A stretch of DNA of 64,000 bases, taken from positions 124,001 to 188,000 of the forward strand of contig DASRBN010000033.1 of assembly GCA_035653615.1 (NCBI GenBank), read 5' to 3'. Positions within the stretch are counted from its first letter, which is position 1, and each line of letters opens with the position of its first letter. Source of the DNA: Ktedonobacteraceae bacterium. GTDB lineage: Bacteria > Chloroflexota > Ktedonobacteria > Ktedonobacterales > Ktedonobacteraceae. Made by a program: the position numbers and the translations under genes. The notes below the pieces were generated by a model. That model ran no database searches. It worked only from the letters and a program-made list of their open reading frames with translations, and was not told the origin of the DNA. Below are positions 1,137-6,552 of this stretch, one piece after another.

Positions 1137-3638
1137 CTACTGTTGCAAGCCGCTCACAACGCGCGCGTATTTCTCCGCCAGCGCCTGGGCCTGTTCGTTG
1201 GAAACGGACTCGGCCACCACGTGGAACAATGGGCGGTCGGCATCGGGCAGCACCAGCACCCATTCTTTGCCTAGATCGATCTTGATGCCGTCAATCGGCT
1301 TCGTGCGCCTGTCTCGATATTGCTCGCTCAGGATGCGCATCACCTTGCCCTTGCTTTCCCAGGGGCAATTCACCATGGTCCTGCTGATGTAGTAAGACGG
1401 CAGGTCATCGACTACCTCTGAAAGGCGCATCTCGAACGTCGCCAGCAACTCGAGTAACTTTATGACGGCGAGCATGCCATCGAAAGCAGGTTGCATGGCC
1501 GGGAAGACAAACCCTCCTGTACCATCACCGGCCAGCACCACACCTTCGCGTCCCGCGGCGCTCAATATCGCGTAGGTCTGCACGCGCGTATGCTGGATAT
1601 GCCCTTCGTAGCGTTGCGCGATATGCTCTAACGCATTGGGAGCCGTCACCGGCGCCGCTACCGTCCCGCCGCGATATTTGCGCAAGAACAGGCTTGTCAT
1701 CACGGCCAGCATCTTTGTCCCGTCCAGGATGCGGCCCCGATCATCGACTACCGAAAGCCGTTCGCCACCTGGGTCGATGCGTATGCCCATATCGTTGTTC
1801 AATGTCGCGGTAATCGTTGCCAGGCGTTGCAGGTCTTTCTCTATTTCTTCCATGGGACGCGAGAAACGCGATTCGTCCGTATTGTTATTCAGCACGATCA
1901 CCTCGCAGCCAAGGCGATTGAAAAGCGCCGGCAGTATCTGCACGGTACTACCATTAGCGTAATCGACCACCAGTTGGAACCTGCGCTGCTGCACCAGCTG
2001 GGCATCAACGACTTTCGCTGTGCTGTCGATGTATGGATTGATGACATCTGAATTTTCCAGCACCTCGATTGATCCCAGGTCATCCAGGTACACGCGGCGG
2101 AAATCCTCCCGGAAGTAGAGATTTTCGATCTTGCGCTCGGTCGTCTTATTGATGTCAAGCCCATTCTGATCAAAGAACTTGATATCGACGATGCGCGGGT
2201 CATGCGGCGATAGCCGTACATGCACACCGCCAACCGCGTCGGTGGTACGCACAAAATAGCGCGCTACCGGTATCGGCACCTGGTTAATGTCATGTACATT
2301 AATCCCGGCAGAGGGTAAGCCCGCTACAATCGCGCGCTTGATCATGCGCGAGGTGCGATGCGATGAATCGCGGTTCAGGCAGACTGTAGAACCCTTGGGG
2401 AGAATTGCCCCATAAGCTGCCCCCAGCTTCGAGGCAAATTCAGGGGTAATATCGACATTGACCAGGCCCGTCACACCGAAGCGGCTGAACAGGCCGCGCC
2501 TCCCCTGCGACCCCCAGATGATGCTGCTATTGACCACAGCCCCGGATTCGATCTCCTTATCCGGCCAGATTTTCACGTTGGGCTGGATGATGGCCCCCTC
2601 CTGAACGATAGAGTTATCGCCGATGACCGAACCCTCAAACATAACCGCTTTACTCTTGATGTTCGTTGAGGAACCAACGATTGCTCCGCGCAGTTCGGCC
2701 CGTTCGCCAATGTACGAATTATTCCACACGATACTGCGATCTACCTGCGAGCGTTCGTCAAGGATGGTGTAGTGCCCAATCGTGCTTGGGCCATGCACGA
2801 TTGCTCCCGATTTAATCTTGCAATCATGTGCCAGGTAGATTGGGCCATACAGTTGAGCATCTTCGTCGATTTCGACGCCTTCCTCGCACCAGATGTTCCC
2901 GCCCATGTTTTTCGCGGGTATCTCAACATCAACACGTCCCTGCAACACATCGGCATTGGCGCGCATATACTCAGGCAGGTTCCCCACATCGCACCAGTAG
3001 CCATTCGCGATATAGCCATAGATGGGATCGCCTTTATTCAGCATGAGGGGGAATAATTCCTGGCTAAAATCGTATTGTTTATTCTTCTCAAAATATGCAA
3101 AAATCTGTGGGTCCAGCACATAGATGCCGGTATTGATGGTATCGCTGAAAACCTCGCCCCAACTTGGTTTCTCCAGAAATTGCGTAATGTGTCCCTCTTC
3201 ATTGGTAATAATCACGCCGTATTCCAATGGATTCGGTACATGGGCCAGCGTCAGTGTTGCCAGCGCCTTTTTCTCATGGTGATAGCGAATGATATCGGTC
3301 AGGTTGTAATCCGTCAGCGCATCGCCGCTGATGACCAGGAACGGCTCGGTCAACTGGTCCTCCGCGTTTTTCACGCTGCCGGCAGTACCCAGTGGCACAT
3401 CTTCCCGTGAATAGGTAATGCGCATACCGAATTGAGATCCGTTGCCGAAATAGTCTTCGATACTGCTTGCCAGGTACTGGACGGTGACAATAACCTCGGT
3501 GATACCATGGCGCTTGAGTAGATGCAGAATATGTTCCATCACCGGTTTCCCGGCGATAGGTACCATTGGTTTAGGGCGTCGAATCGTCAGTGGACGTAGC
3601 CTCGATCCTTCCCCACCGGCCATAACAACCGCTTTCAT
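1137..3638 (-). CDS. Mannose-1-phosphate guanylyltransferase fused to a phosphomannomutase-like domain
   Basis: 833 residues. Residues 1-230 are a nucleotidyltransferase domain with the GGEGSR loop (8-13) and a GD pair near 105. Residues 250-375 hold left-handed beta-helix hexapeptide repeats. Residues 380-830 have the fold pattern of alpha-phosphohexomutases. The first half should make GDP-mannose (or another NDP-sugar) for glycans. In the mutase half the usual Ser-His-Asn-Pro phosphoserine loop reads SPHDP (477-481), and the DGDGDR metal loop reads DPGGER (622-627). It may therefore be inactive or regulatory. The start is set by AAGGAGG upstream of MKAVVMAGG; an upstream 60-codon extension has no such site. 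manA, for the same pathway, is at 27.4 kb. Confidence 0.85.
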
Positions 3639-3730
3639 AGAGGCCTCCTTGCATGTATGGTGAACCAGAAATAAAAACTCAGGAATATCAGAAAAATGAA
3701 GACGGCGCGGCTTGCCGCCTCGCCGTCTCA

Positions 3731-3760
3731 ATTGTACAACAATGGTCAAATCAACTGCAA
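3731..3760 (-). promoter_or_regulatory. Putative sigma-70 promoter for the guanylyltransferase gene
   Basis: On the minus strand TTGCAG (3760-3755) is separated by 18 bases from TACAAT (3736-3731). It would start a transcript about 85 bases ahead of the start codon at 3638. Confidence 0.4.
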
Positions 3761-3804
3761 GTGAGCAAGAATACCTCACCCCATTGCAATCGGAGAAACT
3801 GGTT

Positions 3805-3987
3805 TCATCGCCAATCACTTATCCGGCCATGTTCGACAAGCCAGCGTACAAAACGATGATAATTCGTCTCTTCCGTGGCTTGCCTTTCTTCATACTCTTC
3901 GCGAAGTTGGATGAGCTTGCTGGCTTCTTCTACAGTAAAACCCTCGTCCAGGAGGGCGTCGATAAGCAGATCGATATACTGCTGCAT
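3805..3987 (-). CDS. Small acidic protein of unknown function
   Basis: 60 residues, rich in Glu and predicted mostly helical: residues 1-40 form an amphipathic stretch with EEASKL and REEYEER, followed by a Trp/His-containing tail. The start is well supported by AAAGGAGGA nine bases before ATG. I do not recognise a family. It is read toward the guanylyltransferase gene but a separate promoter-like sequence lies between them. A small regulatory or scaffold protein is possible; nothing in the sequence shows which. Confidence 0.55.
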
Positions 3988-4261
3988 ATTTTTGGGTCCT
4001 CCTTTGCTTATTTACTTTAAAAGTGCGAACAAACCGTCTAACGAGTACAATCTTATACAGCATCCATGTGAAAGAGCAGGCACCCTTGCAATCGATTTGG
4101 ATACTGATTAATTGACTGACCGAAACAGGAGTTCCGTAGGAGCTTCACTTCACCCAACCCTACCATCCAGTCGCTGATACCTCATTTTTGCTACCTACTA
4201 TAGATAGTATAGCGTGAAAGCAAATTTTTTTAAAGAGGAAAACGAACAAACTGCGCTTAAT

Positions 4262-4519
4262 TCATGCCCATGTCTCGTTGTGGATGTAGTGTTCGATCTC
4301 GGCATCGTTATCGTAGTAATAGCTCAGGGCATCGTAGACCTGTGCCAATGTCAGGCGATGAATATTAGCGATTTCCTCGGGGTCTTTTCCCGACTGGAAC
4401 AGTAGAATGACATGGCGCACACCGGTGCGCGTTCCCTCGATAATAGGTTCCCCACCGTAAATAGCCGAATCACGAATAATATGTGGATGAGGTGTTCGTT
4501 CGATTGCCATGGTCCGCAT
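4262..4519 (-). CDS. DUF433 family protein (antitoxin-like)
   Basis: 85 residues. The core GGEPIIEGTRTGVRHVI followed by GKDPEEIANIHRLTLAQVYDAL is the signature of DUF433. This is a small winged-helix-like domain often found as the antitoxin half of VapBC-type pairs or as a solitary DNA-binding protein (family knowledge). No toxin gene is adjacent. Two starts are possible, ATG 4519 and ATG 4510; GGAAG and AGGA sites fit one each. A good promoter lies directly upstream. Confidence 0.8.
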   Translation of the reverse strand: MRTMAIERTPHPHIIRDSAIYGGEPIIEGTRTGVRHVILLFQSGKDPEEIANIHRLTLAQVYDALSYYYDNDAEIEHYIHNETWA

Positions 4520-4553
4520 GTCCTTTCTTCCTTTGTTTGTTTCTCCTAATCGT

Positions 4554-4583
4554 AGTGTAGTCTTAAAAAGCGTCCAGCGTCAA
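4554..4583 (-). promoter_or_regulatory. Putative promoter for the DUF433 gene
   Basis: Minus strand TTGACG (4583-4578), 18-base spacer, TACACT (4559-4554). The start codon at 4519 is about 28 bases beyond the expected transcription start. Confidence 0.5.
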
Positions 4584-4763
4584 TCTATGCTATTCCCTAT
4601 CCCGAAATTCCTGGAAATTGCGTAGAAGAAGGTAAAAAACCCCTACCATATTTGCCTGTTTTCACAAAATATTCACAATGATGAGGTCGGCTTTATCCCA
4701 ACTCACAAGCCAATTGACCGCACTTGCATGTCTGCTTGCTGTCAGTGAATTTTCATCAAAACC

Positions 4764-4792
4764 TTGACAGAAAACGAAATGCAATGTACAAT
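4764..4792 (+). promoter_or_regulatory. Strong sigma-70 promoter of the structured RNA
   Basis: TTGACA (4764-4769), a 17-base spacer and TACAAT (4787-4792). The -35 box is perfect consensus and the -10 differs at one position. Transcription should begin near 4799. Confidence 0.75.
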
Positions 4793-4819
4793 AAACGCAA
4801 CGAAAGGAGGTGGTGTGTA

Positions 4820-4894
4820 ATGGACCAACGTAATCGCTGCACAGGCAGCGAGGTAATTTCCCACACCTTCCAGTTGAGAGGTGACCGGCGTTAA
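4820..4894 (+). CDS. Possible 24-residue peptide inside the structured RNA
   Basis: ATG at 4820 follows a near-perfect AAAGGAGGTGG ribosome site; 24 codons end in TAA. The SD can pair with CACACC-TTCC at 4862-4871, so its exposure would depend on RNA folding. The peptide has no amino-acid run typical of attenuation leaders. It may be a regulatory uORF, or the SD-like sequence may simply be part of an RNA structure. Confidence 0.3.
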   Translation: MDQRNRCTGSEVISHTFQLRGDRR

Positions 4895-4974
4895 GCTGGT
4901 TTTCTGCCGCTGGTAGGTGAATTTCTTTCTCGACAGAGATTGAAAGACTTTATAATCCCTACCTGTGCAGCGTT

Positions 4975-5021
4975 CCCCAGAGTAATAGCAAAATCAGAAT
5001 TGCCGTTACTCTGGGGTTTTT
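4975..5021 (+). terminator. Intrinsic terminator of the structured RNA
   Basis: CCCCAGAGTAA (4975-4985) pairs perfectly with TTACTCTGGGG (5006-5016), followed by five T. It lies upstream of birA, so it either ends an independent RNA or acts as an attenuator. Confidence 0.8.
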
Positions 5022-5152
5022 ATCCACGATTTACTTCCCCTCCATTGCTTGCGCTGCAATAGGGCACCTTTTCCCGTCTCTATTTCCCTTGGTTTTTGTT
5101 AGCACTTACGCATATTTATAAATCTATACATAAAGAAGCAGGATTGTTGAAC

Positions 5153-6010
5153 GTGCAGGGCGTTTCGCTCGCTTTAGGAACTCTTCAGCGTCATCTTACT
5201 ACTCATTTGATCGGAGTTGGAGACCGGTTGGTCTATCTTCCAACCGTAGCATCAACAAATTCGTTGGCTATGCAGCTGGCTTTTGAAAGGCCAGACGAAG
5301 GGCTGGTGGTGCTTACTGATAATCAAACCGCTGGAAAAGGCAGGCAAGGTCACCGGTGGGTAGATGTGCCAGGATGGAATATCCTTTCTTCCACTGTACT
5401 GCGACCAGAATTCCCGCCTCACTTGCTCATAATGGTTGCTTCGCTTGCTGTCGTTGACGCGATCGCTGAAACCGCTCATATAGCTGCCACTATCAAATGG
5501 CCTAACGATGTTCTCATTGGAGAGCGAAAAGTTGCCGGTATTTTGATTGAAACCAGCCGTGATCCCTGGGGCCGCGTGGTTGCCGTCGTCGGAATAGGAA
5601 TCAACGTCAACGGGCATATTCAGGATATGTCACAGAAGCTCTCTTCGCAGGCGTCTCTGCTGGTCAATGCAACCACCCTTGAGACAGAGTGCGGTCACCA
5701 GCTCAGCCGAGAGATTCTCCTGGCTCACCTGTTGCAGCATATTGAAAACGACTACCTTGCTTTGCAACAGGAAGCAGCAGGAACAAGTCCGGCGCAAATG
5801 CCAGCTTCTATGCCTTCCGCTCGGTTGCTTCGAGAGCGATGGAAAGGCCGATTATCAACCCTTGGACGCGCTATTACCGTCCGGCAAGGAGATTCCGTAA
5901 TCAACGGGATCGCTGAGAATGTGGATGAGAATGGAGAGCTGTTACTCCGTAACCATTCAGGAGCATTGATCAGTATTACCTGGGGAACATTGGAGTATGC
6001 TGCCAGGTAA
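5153..6010 (+). CDS. birA: Biotin--[acetyl-CoA-carboxylase] ligase
   Basis: Attaches biotin to carboxylase carrier domains through biotinyl-AMP. The ligase core is clear: STNS, the GKGRQGHRW adenylate loop, TIKWPNDVLIGERKVAGILIE and GIGINVN, followed by a small C-terminal SH3-like domain. The N-terminal winged helix of bifunctional BirA repressors is absent, so this is a monofunctional enzyme. The start is uncertain: GTG 5153 has AGGA nine bases upstream, while TTG 5144 and TTG 5147 are in frame with poorer spacing, and there is no suitable ATG. The structured RNA at 4.8-5.0 kb lies just upstream. Confidence 0.88.
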   Translation: MQGVSLALGTLQRHLTTHLIGVGDRLVYLPTVASTNSLAMQLAFERPDEGLVVLTDNQTAGKGRQGHRWVDVPGWNILSSTVLRPEFPPHLLIMVASLAVVDAIAETAHIAATIKWPNDVLIGERKVAGILIETSRDPWGRVVAVVGIGINVNGHIQDMSQKLSSQASLLVNATTLETECGHQLSREILLAHLLQHIENDYLALQQEAAGTSPAQMPASMPSARLLRERWKGRLSTLGRAITVRQGDSVINGIAENVDENGELLLRNHSGALISITWGTLEYAAR

Positions 6011-6087
6011 AACCTATCTTTAGAGATGGGCCTATAAGTTATGGTAGTGGAAGGAGCCCCTGCCATAGTAGAAGGGAAATATAGGAG

Positions 6088-6552
6088 ATGGAGACACAGA
6101 ACGTATTCCTAACAGATGACGGACGACAACGAGTACTCAATCAACTTGAGTTCCTGCGCACCGTGAGAAGGGCGGAAGTCGCTCAATATCTACATGATGC
6201 GAAGGAATCTGGCGATGTCATCGATAATGCCGCCTATGATGATGCAAAGAACGAGCAGGCCCGCCTGGAAGGGCGTATTATGGAGCTTGAGCAACTGCTG
6301 GCGAGGGCGATGCCGATCAGCAAGGTTGATACCGACGTCGTTTCGCTGGGGTCTGTTGTTCGCTTGCGCACCCCCGATGAGCGCGAGTATTGCTATACCA
6401 TCGTGGGCGCTTTCGAGGCCAATCCGACTGCCGGCCGCATTTCCAATGAATCTCCGGTGGGTAAAGCACTGCTGGGCCATAGAGTAGGCGATCTGGTGAT
6501 TGTATCTACGCCCGGCGGTGTGAAAGAATATACCATTATCTCCATCGAGTAA
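6088..6552 (+). CDS. greA: Transcription elongation factor GreA
   Basis: 154 residues, the usual GreA length. The N-terminal coiled coil carries the tip sequence GDVIDNAAYDDAK. The two acidic residues that reach the RNA polymerase active centre are Asp and Asp here (Asp and Glu in E. coli, from memory). The C-terminal FKBP-like domain contains TAGRISNESPVGKALLG. GreA rescues backtracked polymerase by stimulating transcript cleavage. AAGGGA lies ten bases before ATG. Its own terminator follows at 6591. Confidence 0.93.
   Translation: METQNVFLTDDGRQRVLNQLEFLRTVRRAEVAQYLHDAKESGDVIDNAAYDDAKNEQARLEGRIMELEQLLARAMPISKVDTDVVSLGSVVRLRTPDEREYCYTIVGAFEANPTAGRISNESPVGKALLGHRVGDLVIVSTPGGVKEYTIISIE

Follow-up and report, generated by a model that had tools for sequence, protein, structure and literature searches.

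A structured RNA of about 220 nt, encoded upstream of the biotin protein ligase gene birA, was characterized in a 64,000-nucleotide stretch of DNA from a Ktedonobacteraceae bacterium (the window). This RNA is real and conserved and is absent from Rfam 15 and from the literature searches made, which yielded no account of it at the record level; its function we can only infer. The promoter is followed by a Shine-Dalgarno (SD) stretch, a 24-codon ORF, a spacer and a terminator, all upstream of birA (Table 1). A sequence-only reading of the window had proposed a structured RNA outside the known families, in which helices exclude one another and the SD can be buried, and its fold, its covariation and the Rfam scans all support that proposal.

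Table 1. Features of the RNA gene and of birA, in positions of the window.
Feature	Position	Strand	Basis or remark
Sigma-70-type promoter, TTGACA-17-TACAAT	4764..4792	+	11/12 consensus matches
SD stretch GAAAGGAGGTG, 11 nt	4802..4812	+	Sequence; almost at the predicted RNA 5' end
Helix S, 5' arm GGTGTG, able to bury the SD	4812..4817	+	Pairs with 4862-4867 in 33/33
24-codon ORF MDQRNRCTGSEVISHTFQLRGDRR	4820..4894	+	Open in homologues
Helix B, 5' arm, usual position of the family's 13-bp helix	4836..4848	+	Covariation, contiguous helix length
Hairpin A, GCTGC (4836-4840)/GCAGC (4845-4849), excludes B	4836..4849	+	Covaries in 33
Helix S, 3' arm CACACC, within the ORF	4862..4867	+	Pairs with 4812-4817
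Helix E, 5' arm CACCTTCCAG, excludes S	4864..4873	+	Minimum-energy fold; pairs with 4910-4919
Helix E, 3' arm CTGGTAGGTG, beyond the ORF stop	4910..4919	+	Minimum-energy fold
Helix B, 3' arm	4959..4971	+	Covariation; 3 nt from the terminator stem
Intrinsic terminator	4975..5021	+	Stem 4975-5016, then TTTTT (T run 5017-5021)
birA, biotin protein ligase	5156..6010	+	TIGR00121, 142.3 bits (cut-off 83.1); start uncertain, TTG 5147 or GTG 5156

Both ends of the transcription unit were as the sequence-only reading had described them, a near-consensus promoter and a strong terminator. The promoter was the top-scoring site within positions 3500-6500, and a promoter-like site (at least 9/12) was present in the matching position in 42 of 46 homologues. 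A terminator was found in 40 of the 46: the script detected strong hairpins trailed by a T run in 39, a weak one was recognized in L108 by eye, and the same 46-locus scan found it missing in all six g13 loci. The stretch between the two, 4799-5021, had a folding energy of -90.6 kcal/mol (z -6.6), and none of 200 shuffles was equally stable. At the gathering cut-off, the single Rfam 15 match in the whole window was one tRNA and the region itself gave none; when the region was scanned to E 10, only DUF3577 (E 0.19) and CRISPR-DR25 (E 4.4) appeared, both on the opposite strand and taken as chance. In 14 related loci nothing matched over the element, the sole match being a tmRNA elsewhere in L181. 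The claim that no known family explains the locus thus withstood a search with all Rfam models; SRP and RNase P were covered by these whole-Rfam scans only.

The main comparative evidence concerned the long-range helix B. An exact 11-bp inverted repeat is present in the window at 4835-4845/4962-4972, as had been claimed, and 3 of 200 shuffles of this single RNA sequence gave an equal or better helix; it is the comparative evidence, and not the single sequence, that places helix B beyond chance. Unguided RNAalifold analysis of 33 homologues (alignment A1) predicted helix B and nothing else, with 12 pairs, of which 6 had two-sided changes. Scored together over the 33 rows, B (13 pairs) and S (6 pairs) were paired in 98.1% of 627 cells, a level reached by 0/500 shuffles, and two-sided changes occurred in 7 pairs; these amounted to 33 two-sided cells against a shuffled mean of 8.8, again with no shuffle of 500 as high. 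Sliding the partner strand reduced the pairing to 25-51%. Helix B thus covaries among homologous loci, the very point on which the sequence-only reading had said that it could fail. Deep relatives retain B in different letters, such as CAACCGTATAAGCA/TGCTTATGCGGTTG in L082, and L141 carries it in a 6+13-bp version. Duplex-energy z-scores for B are diluted by other pairing, and contiguous helix length was used instead. By this measure B reached at least 9 bp in 44/46 loci by script; in nine loci (the six g13 loci, L076, L084 and L108) B did not appear in its usual position without a mismatch or internal loop. The g13 loci (L017-L020, L023 and L026) thus combine the lack of a terminator with a mismatch in B, and most of the six gain an extra 9-bp block such as GAGTTAACC/GGTTAGCTC.

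Hairpin A was paired in 98.8% of its 165 cells in A1, with 14 two-sided cells. Since its arms are mutually complementary and both lie within B, A and B do not provide independent evidence. The proposed competition between this local hairpin and the long helix is real in the window and in the 33 aligned homologues, but it does not extend to L079, L081, L082 and L083, in which A was missing by eye. The competition seen most widely is instead one predicted by folding, in which the 3' segment vies with the helix that covers the SD.

The small ORF was open in 46/46 homologues, with a length of 20-26 codons (exactly 24 in 29 of them) and a fixed stop position, and alternative frames were open in 3/46 and 2/46. 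As the 46 loci had been selected for an ORF of 19-27 codons after an SD, this openness is partly built in; the whole-codon length changes and the fixed stop are not. Starts were ATG (32), GTG (13) and TTG (1), and stops TAG (28), TAA (14) and TGA (4). SD columns 3-13 were invariant across the 33 homologues of A1. Judged by its substitutions, the peptide seems weakly constrained, with a pooled within-group pS of 0.203 and pN of 0.152, giving a pN/pS of about 0.75 overall and 1.17 in the codons of helix B. Since frame and stop are kept at such a ratio, the passage of ribosomes seems more important than the peptide. No run of residues, and with it no shared set of tandem regulatory codons, was common to all 46 peptides by eye. 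Amino-acid attenuation based on cysteine was rejected, the CC/RC motif being frequent yet missing in L020, L028, L082 and L083.

Burial of the SD by CACACC had also been suggested, and here the outcome was mixed. Helix S was paired in every row of A1, with little variation and one two-sided change (L011). In single sequences, however, it was not above chance (mean 7.7 bp vs 7.2 shuffled, n=51), so the helix rests on its conservation and on that one double change. The accessibility of the SD was followed by a partition-function calculation on the 46 homologues, which are related and not independent, the unpaired probability from GGAGG to the start codon being measured; the model ignores pseudoknots, and S and B could in principle coexist. 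The mean unpaired probability was 0.32 after 18 codons and 0.31 at the ORF end, rising to 0.53 once the whole RNA as far as the terminator was included, against 0.28 when the 3' part was shuffled. With a margin of more than 0.1, the full RNA lay above its own shuffled-3' control in 35/46 homologues and below it in 1; in L016 and L038 the SD was not opened in the prediction. The calculation thus predicts that the ribosome site is closed while the RNA is incomplete and that the 3' segment opens it.

The distance between helix B and the terminator stem was short and nearly constant, with a median of 3 nt and quartiles of 2.25-4 in the 38 loci in which B was placed by script, whereas the distance from the stop codon to B varied from 1 to 86 in these loci. 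The outlier L076 (56) reflects a misplaced helix, and L084 was skipped. An antiterminator was not found: pairing of the terminator 5' arm with upstream RNA gave a mean z of +0.40, with 0/39 loci below -2. This candidate was rejected, the pairing being no better than in shuffles in 39 loci. In g10 and its relatives, GCTTTGGAG could pair with CCCCAGAGC, and this is restricted to one lineage. To judge from the sequences, the link between fold and terminator appears to consist of their fixed adjacency alone.

BLAST with the 262-base stretch gave matches in 35/61 genomes, the window's own counted. A covariance search across Ktedonobacteria, proposed by the sequence-only reading as a check, brought out relatives widely: model R1, built on the 5' part, matched 39/47 genomes of the class and 14/14 of those with a completeness of 90% or more and a contamination of 5% or less, and of the eight misses G008, G019 and G043 have partial copies at contig ends. 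A pattern scan of 84,980 species genomes returned 27 stretches, 24 in Ktedonobacteria (among them Ktedonobacter racemifer, Dictyobacter, Ktedonosporobacter and Ktedonospora), 2 in other Chloroflexi MAGs and 1 in Syntrophaceae; the last (L094), which falls within the start of a coding sequence, was attributed to chance. In phylum samples of 400 genomes, two different patterns matched 25 and 9 genomes. Matches outside the class belonged to f5 (G059, G069), f41 (G224), f40 (G182) and f12 (G054, G066, G083, G247). Loci L181-L185 stand outside the 46-locus set; the ORF has 20 codons in L185 and 13 in the four f12 loci, and in f12 helix B is weak, at 7-9 bp. Because of the short ORF and weak helix, we grade the f12 form as a probable relative only.

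In the window, birA is followed on the same strand by GreA and by a class II (D, K and N) tRNA synthetase, which by its place and length is lysS. birA was directly downstream of the RNA in 32/46 loci, across families f1, f2, f3, f4, f5 and f41; in f5 and f41 it could start 9-72 nt past the terminator, and in G182 (f40, outside the 46) the gap from the terminator stem to the start of birA (PF03099, 67.4 bits) is about 22 nt. Promoter-like sites in the spacer before birA were at chance (3/18 vs 3.4 expected; 17 of the 18 spacers were soundly measured, L004 being mis-measured). The RNA is thus free-standing, as the sequence-only reading had called it, in having its own promoter and terminator, but not in its neighbourhood. 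In twelve loci birA was not next (L021, L022, L024, L028, L030, L033-L035, L078, L082-L084), and in L030, L034 and L078 the gene that was next had the opposed orientation; the remaining two, L081 and L142, were too short to tell. Copies without birA occurred in Ktedonobacter, G033, G039, G029, G038 and G046, and Dictyobacter and Ktedonospora have such copies as paralogues; conversely, in three g8 genomes out of four the RNA does not precede birA. In f12 it was smpB that followed the RNA (SmpB, 207.5 bits in L181; the other three by eye); the element of L181-L184 is flanked by a peptidase-like gene and smpB, and a tmRNA lies further downstream in L181 and L184. A second kind of copy, whose ORF starts MYEQ or MYEP, is found apart from birA in L033, L034, L035, L021, L022, L024 and L030; it occurs in Dictyobacter, Ktedonobacter and Ktedonospora and is the only copy found in three Ktedonobacter genomes.

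The gene parts, the neighbourhood and the preservation of both helix B and the ORF are shown by the results above, and the working of the RNA can be put forward as a model. We tentatively favour, at a little less than an even chance, a ribosome-gated leader in which translation lets polymerases into birA. Transcription would begin at the 4764 promoter, and in the emerging RNA the SD of the small ORF would be held in helix S, together with hairpin A. The 3' segment just before the terminator would then fold back onto the ORF through helices B and E, freeing the SD, so that, from the opening predicted by folding, the ORF would become translatable only once the RNA is nearly finished. Ribosomes on the ORF would in turn break B. 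Given the gap of about 3 nt between B and the terminator, we infer that B favours termination and release of the RNA of about 220 nt, and translation of the ORF would then give more read-through into birA, which greA and lysS follow. A signal could conceivably act through the leader. Most likely, the RNA is the leader of birA and is mostly released as a small RNA, both roles holding; the alternative of the sequence-only reading, a switching RNA or a small RNA, may thus be answered by both.

The covarying helix B, the predicted rise in SD access from 0.31 to 0.53, the ORF open throughout, the short gap to the terminator, the link to birA over several lineages and the chance level of spacer promoters are consistent with the leader model. 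The missing antiterminator speaks against it, as do the birA-less copies (three of them with opposed next genes), birA without the RNA in g8, smpB in f12, the terminator-less g13 loci and the unopened SD of L016 and L038. The main rival is an autonomous two-role small RNA gene that would act by trans base pairing or ribosome binding and be translated on the side, birA being an inherited neighbourhood such as that of 6S RNA and ygfA. This is the less likely reading, though one with substance: promoter and terminator are the RNA's own in 42/46 and 40/46 homologues, paralogues and the Ktedonobacter copies persist off birA, and related species have differing or opposed genes downstream, and f12 has smpB there rather than birA. 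It fits poorly, however, with the recurrence of the birA link in several deep lineages, with the closeness of birA to the terminator in f5, f41 and f40, and with spacers in which no promoters above chance were seen. If instead the 20-26-residue peptide were the product of a tiny mRNA whose helices merely regulate its translation, the preserved frame and stop would be expected, and peptides outside the class start similarly (MDSSCC, MGSSCC, VSSSCH). The pN/pS values, higher in the codons of helix B than overall, make this improbable; the helices force many of the common residues, an NCBIfam search gave no match and some peptides, such as those of L028 and L020, have no cysteine.

A metabolite riboswitch controlling birA, for instance one for biotin, is suggested by the position ahead of birA and by the compact folded RNA with its terminator and alternative helices. 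It is very unlikely, as copies precede smpB and unrelated genes, no antiterminator was found, and the sequence from the stop codon to B is unconserved in A1, with no conserved unpaired core, so that no conserved ligand pocket is visible. We give hardly any credence to a divergent 6S RNA. The RNA resembles 6S RNA in size, in transcription from a strong promoter of its own and in class-wide occurrence, and with E up to 1 the 6S model (RF00013) matched 0/12 Ktedonobacteria genomes, among them that of the window; the same model matched 6/14 control genomes. 6S RNA may be lacking in Ktedonobacteria or be highly divergent there. Yet the RNA described here has a conserved SD and an open reading frame, its region gave no 6S score even to E 10, and its helix encloses a variable middle and not a conserved bubble. 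With the scans of region and genomes both negative, 6S identity was rejected.

Known systems offer partial parallels. Leader-peptide attenuators of the trp type join a short leader, a small ORF, exclusive helices and a terminator to a downstream operon. The RNA shares the small ORF with its SD in the 5' leader, the exclusive helices overlapping it, the terminator and the operon; in contrast, the search of 39 loci gave no terminator-overlapping antiterminator, the 46 peptides no shared regulatory codons, and some copies have no downstream target. The resistance genes ermC, vmlR and bmrB have translation-sensing leaders, likewise with a strong SD and a short ORF and with a fold that would change with ribosome occupancy, but here birA or smpB lies downstream and no exchange between terminator and antiterminator was found. 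In hok mRNA (hok/Sok), access to the SD depends on whether the transcript is complete and on base pairing with its own 3' part. The same elements recur here, except that the 3' part is predicted to open the SD rather than close it, and no toxin-like peptide or antisense RNA was seen. The dual-function sRNAs SR1 and SgrS are similar in length (about 200 nt), in promoter and terminator of their own and in a small ORF, and differ from the present RNA in its link to birA and its weakly conserved peptide. A broader proposal, which we regard as speculative and rather doubtful, is a class of ribosome-sensing RNAs in several Chloroflexota groups, attached to birA, smpB and other loci, in which a tiny ORF has its ribosome site opened by the 3' end of the RNA and translation, not the peptide, sets passage of the adjoining terminator without an antiterminator.

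The RNA adds a class-wide element missing from Rfam to large-genome bacteria with little RNA biology. If a leader, it would be a translation-reading regulator of biotin ligase, possibly of smpB too, and a clean case for asking whether termination at a separate hairpin can be governed, without an antiterminator, by a ribosome translating a short ORF; if a small RNA, it would be a candidate housekeeping RNA of a class in which the 6S model gave no match. Elsewhere in the window, two ORFs on the minus strand have look-alikes in related loci: one of 85 codons (4262-4519), possibly resembling a DUF433-type antitoxin, is matched by look-alikes that precede the RNA in L019 and L036, and one of 60 residues (3805-3987), a small conserved unknown protein, has a look-alike in L013.
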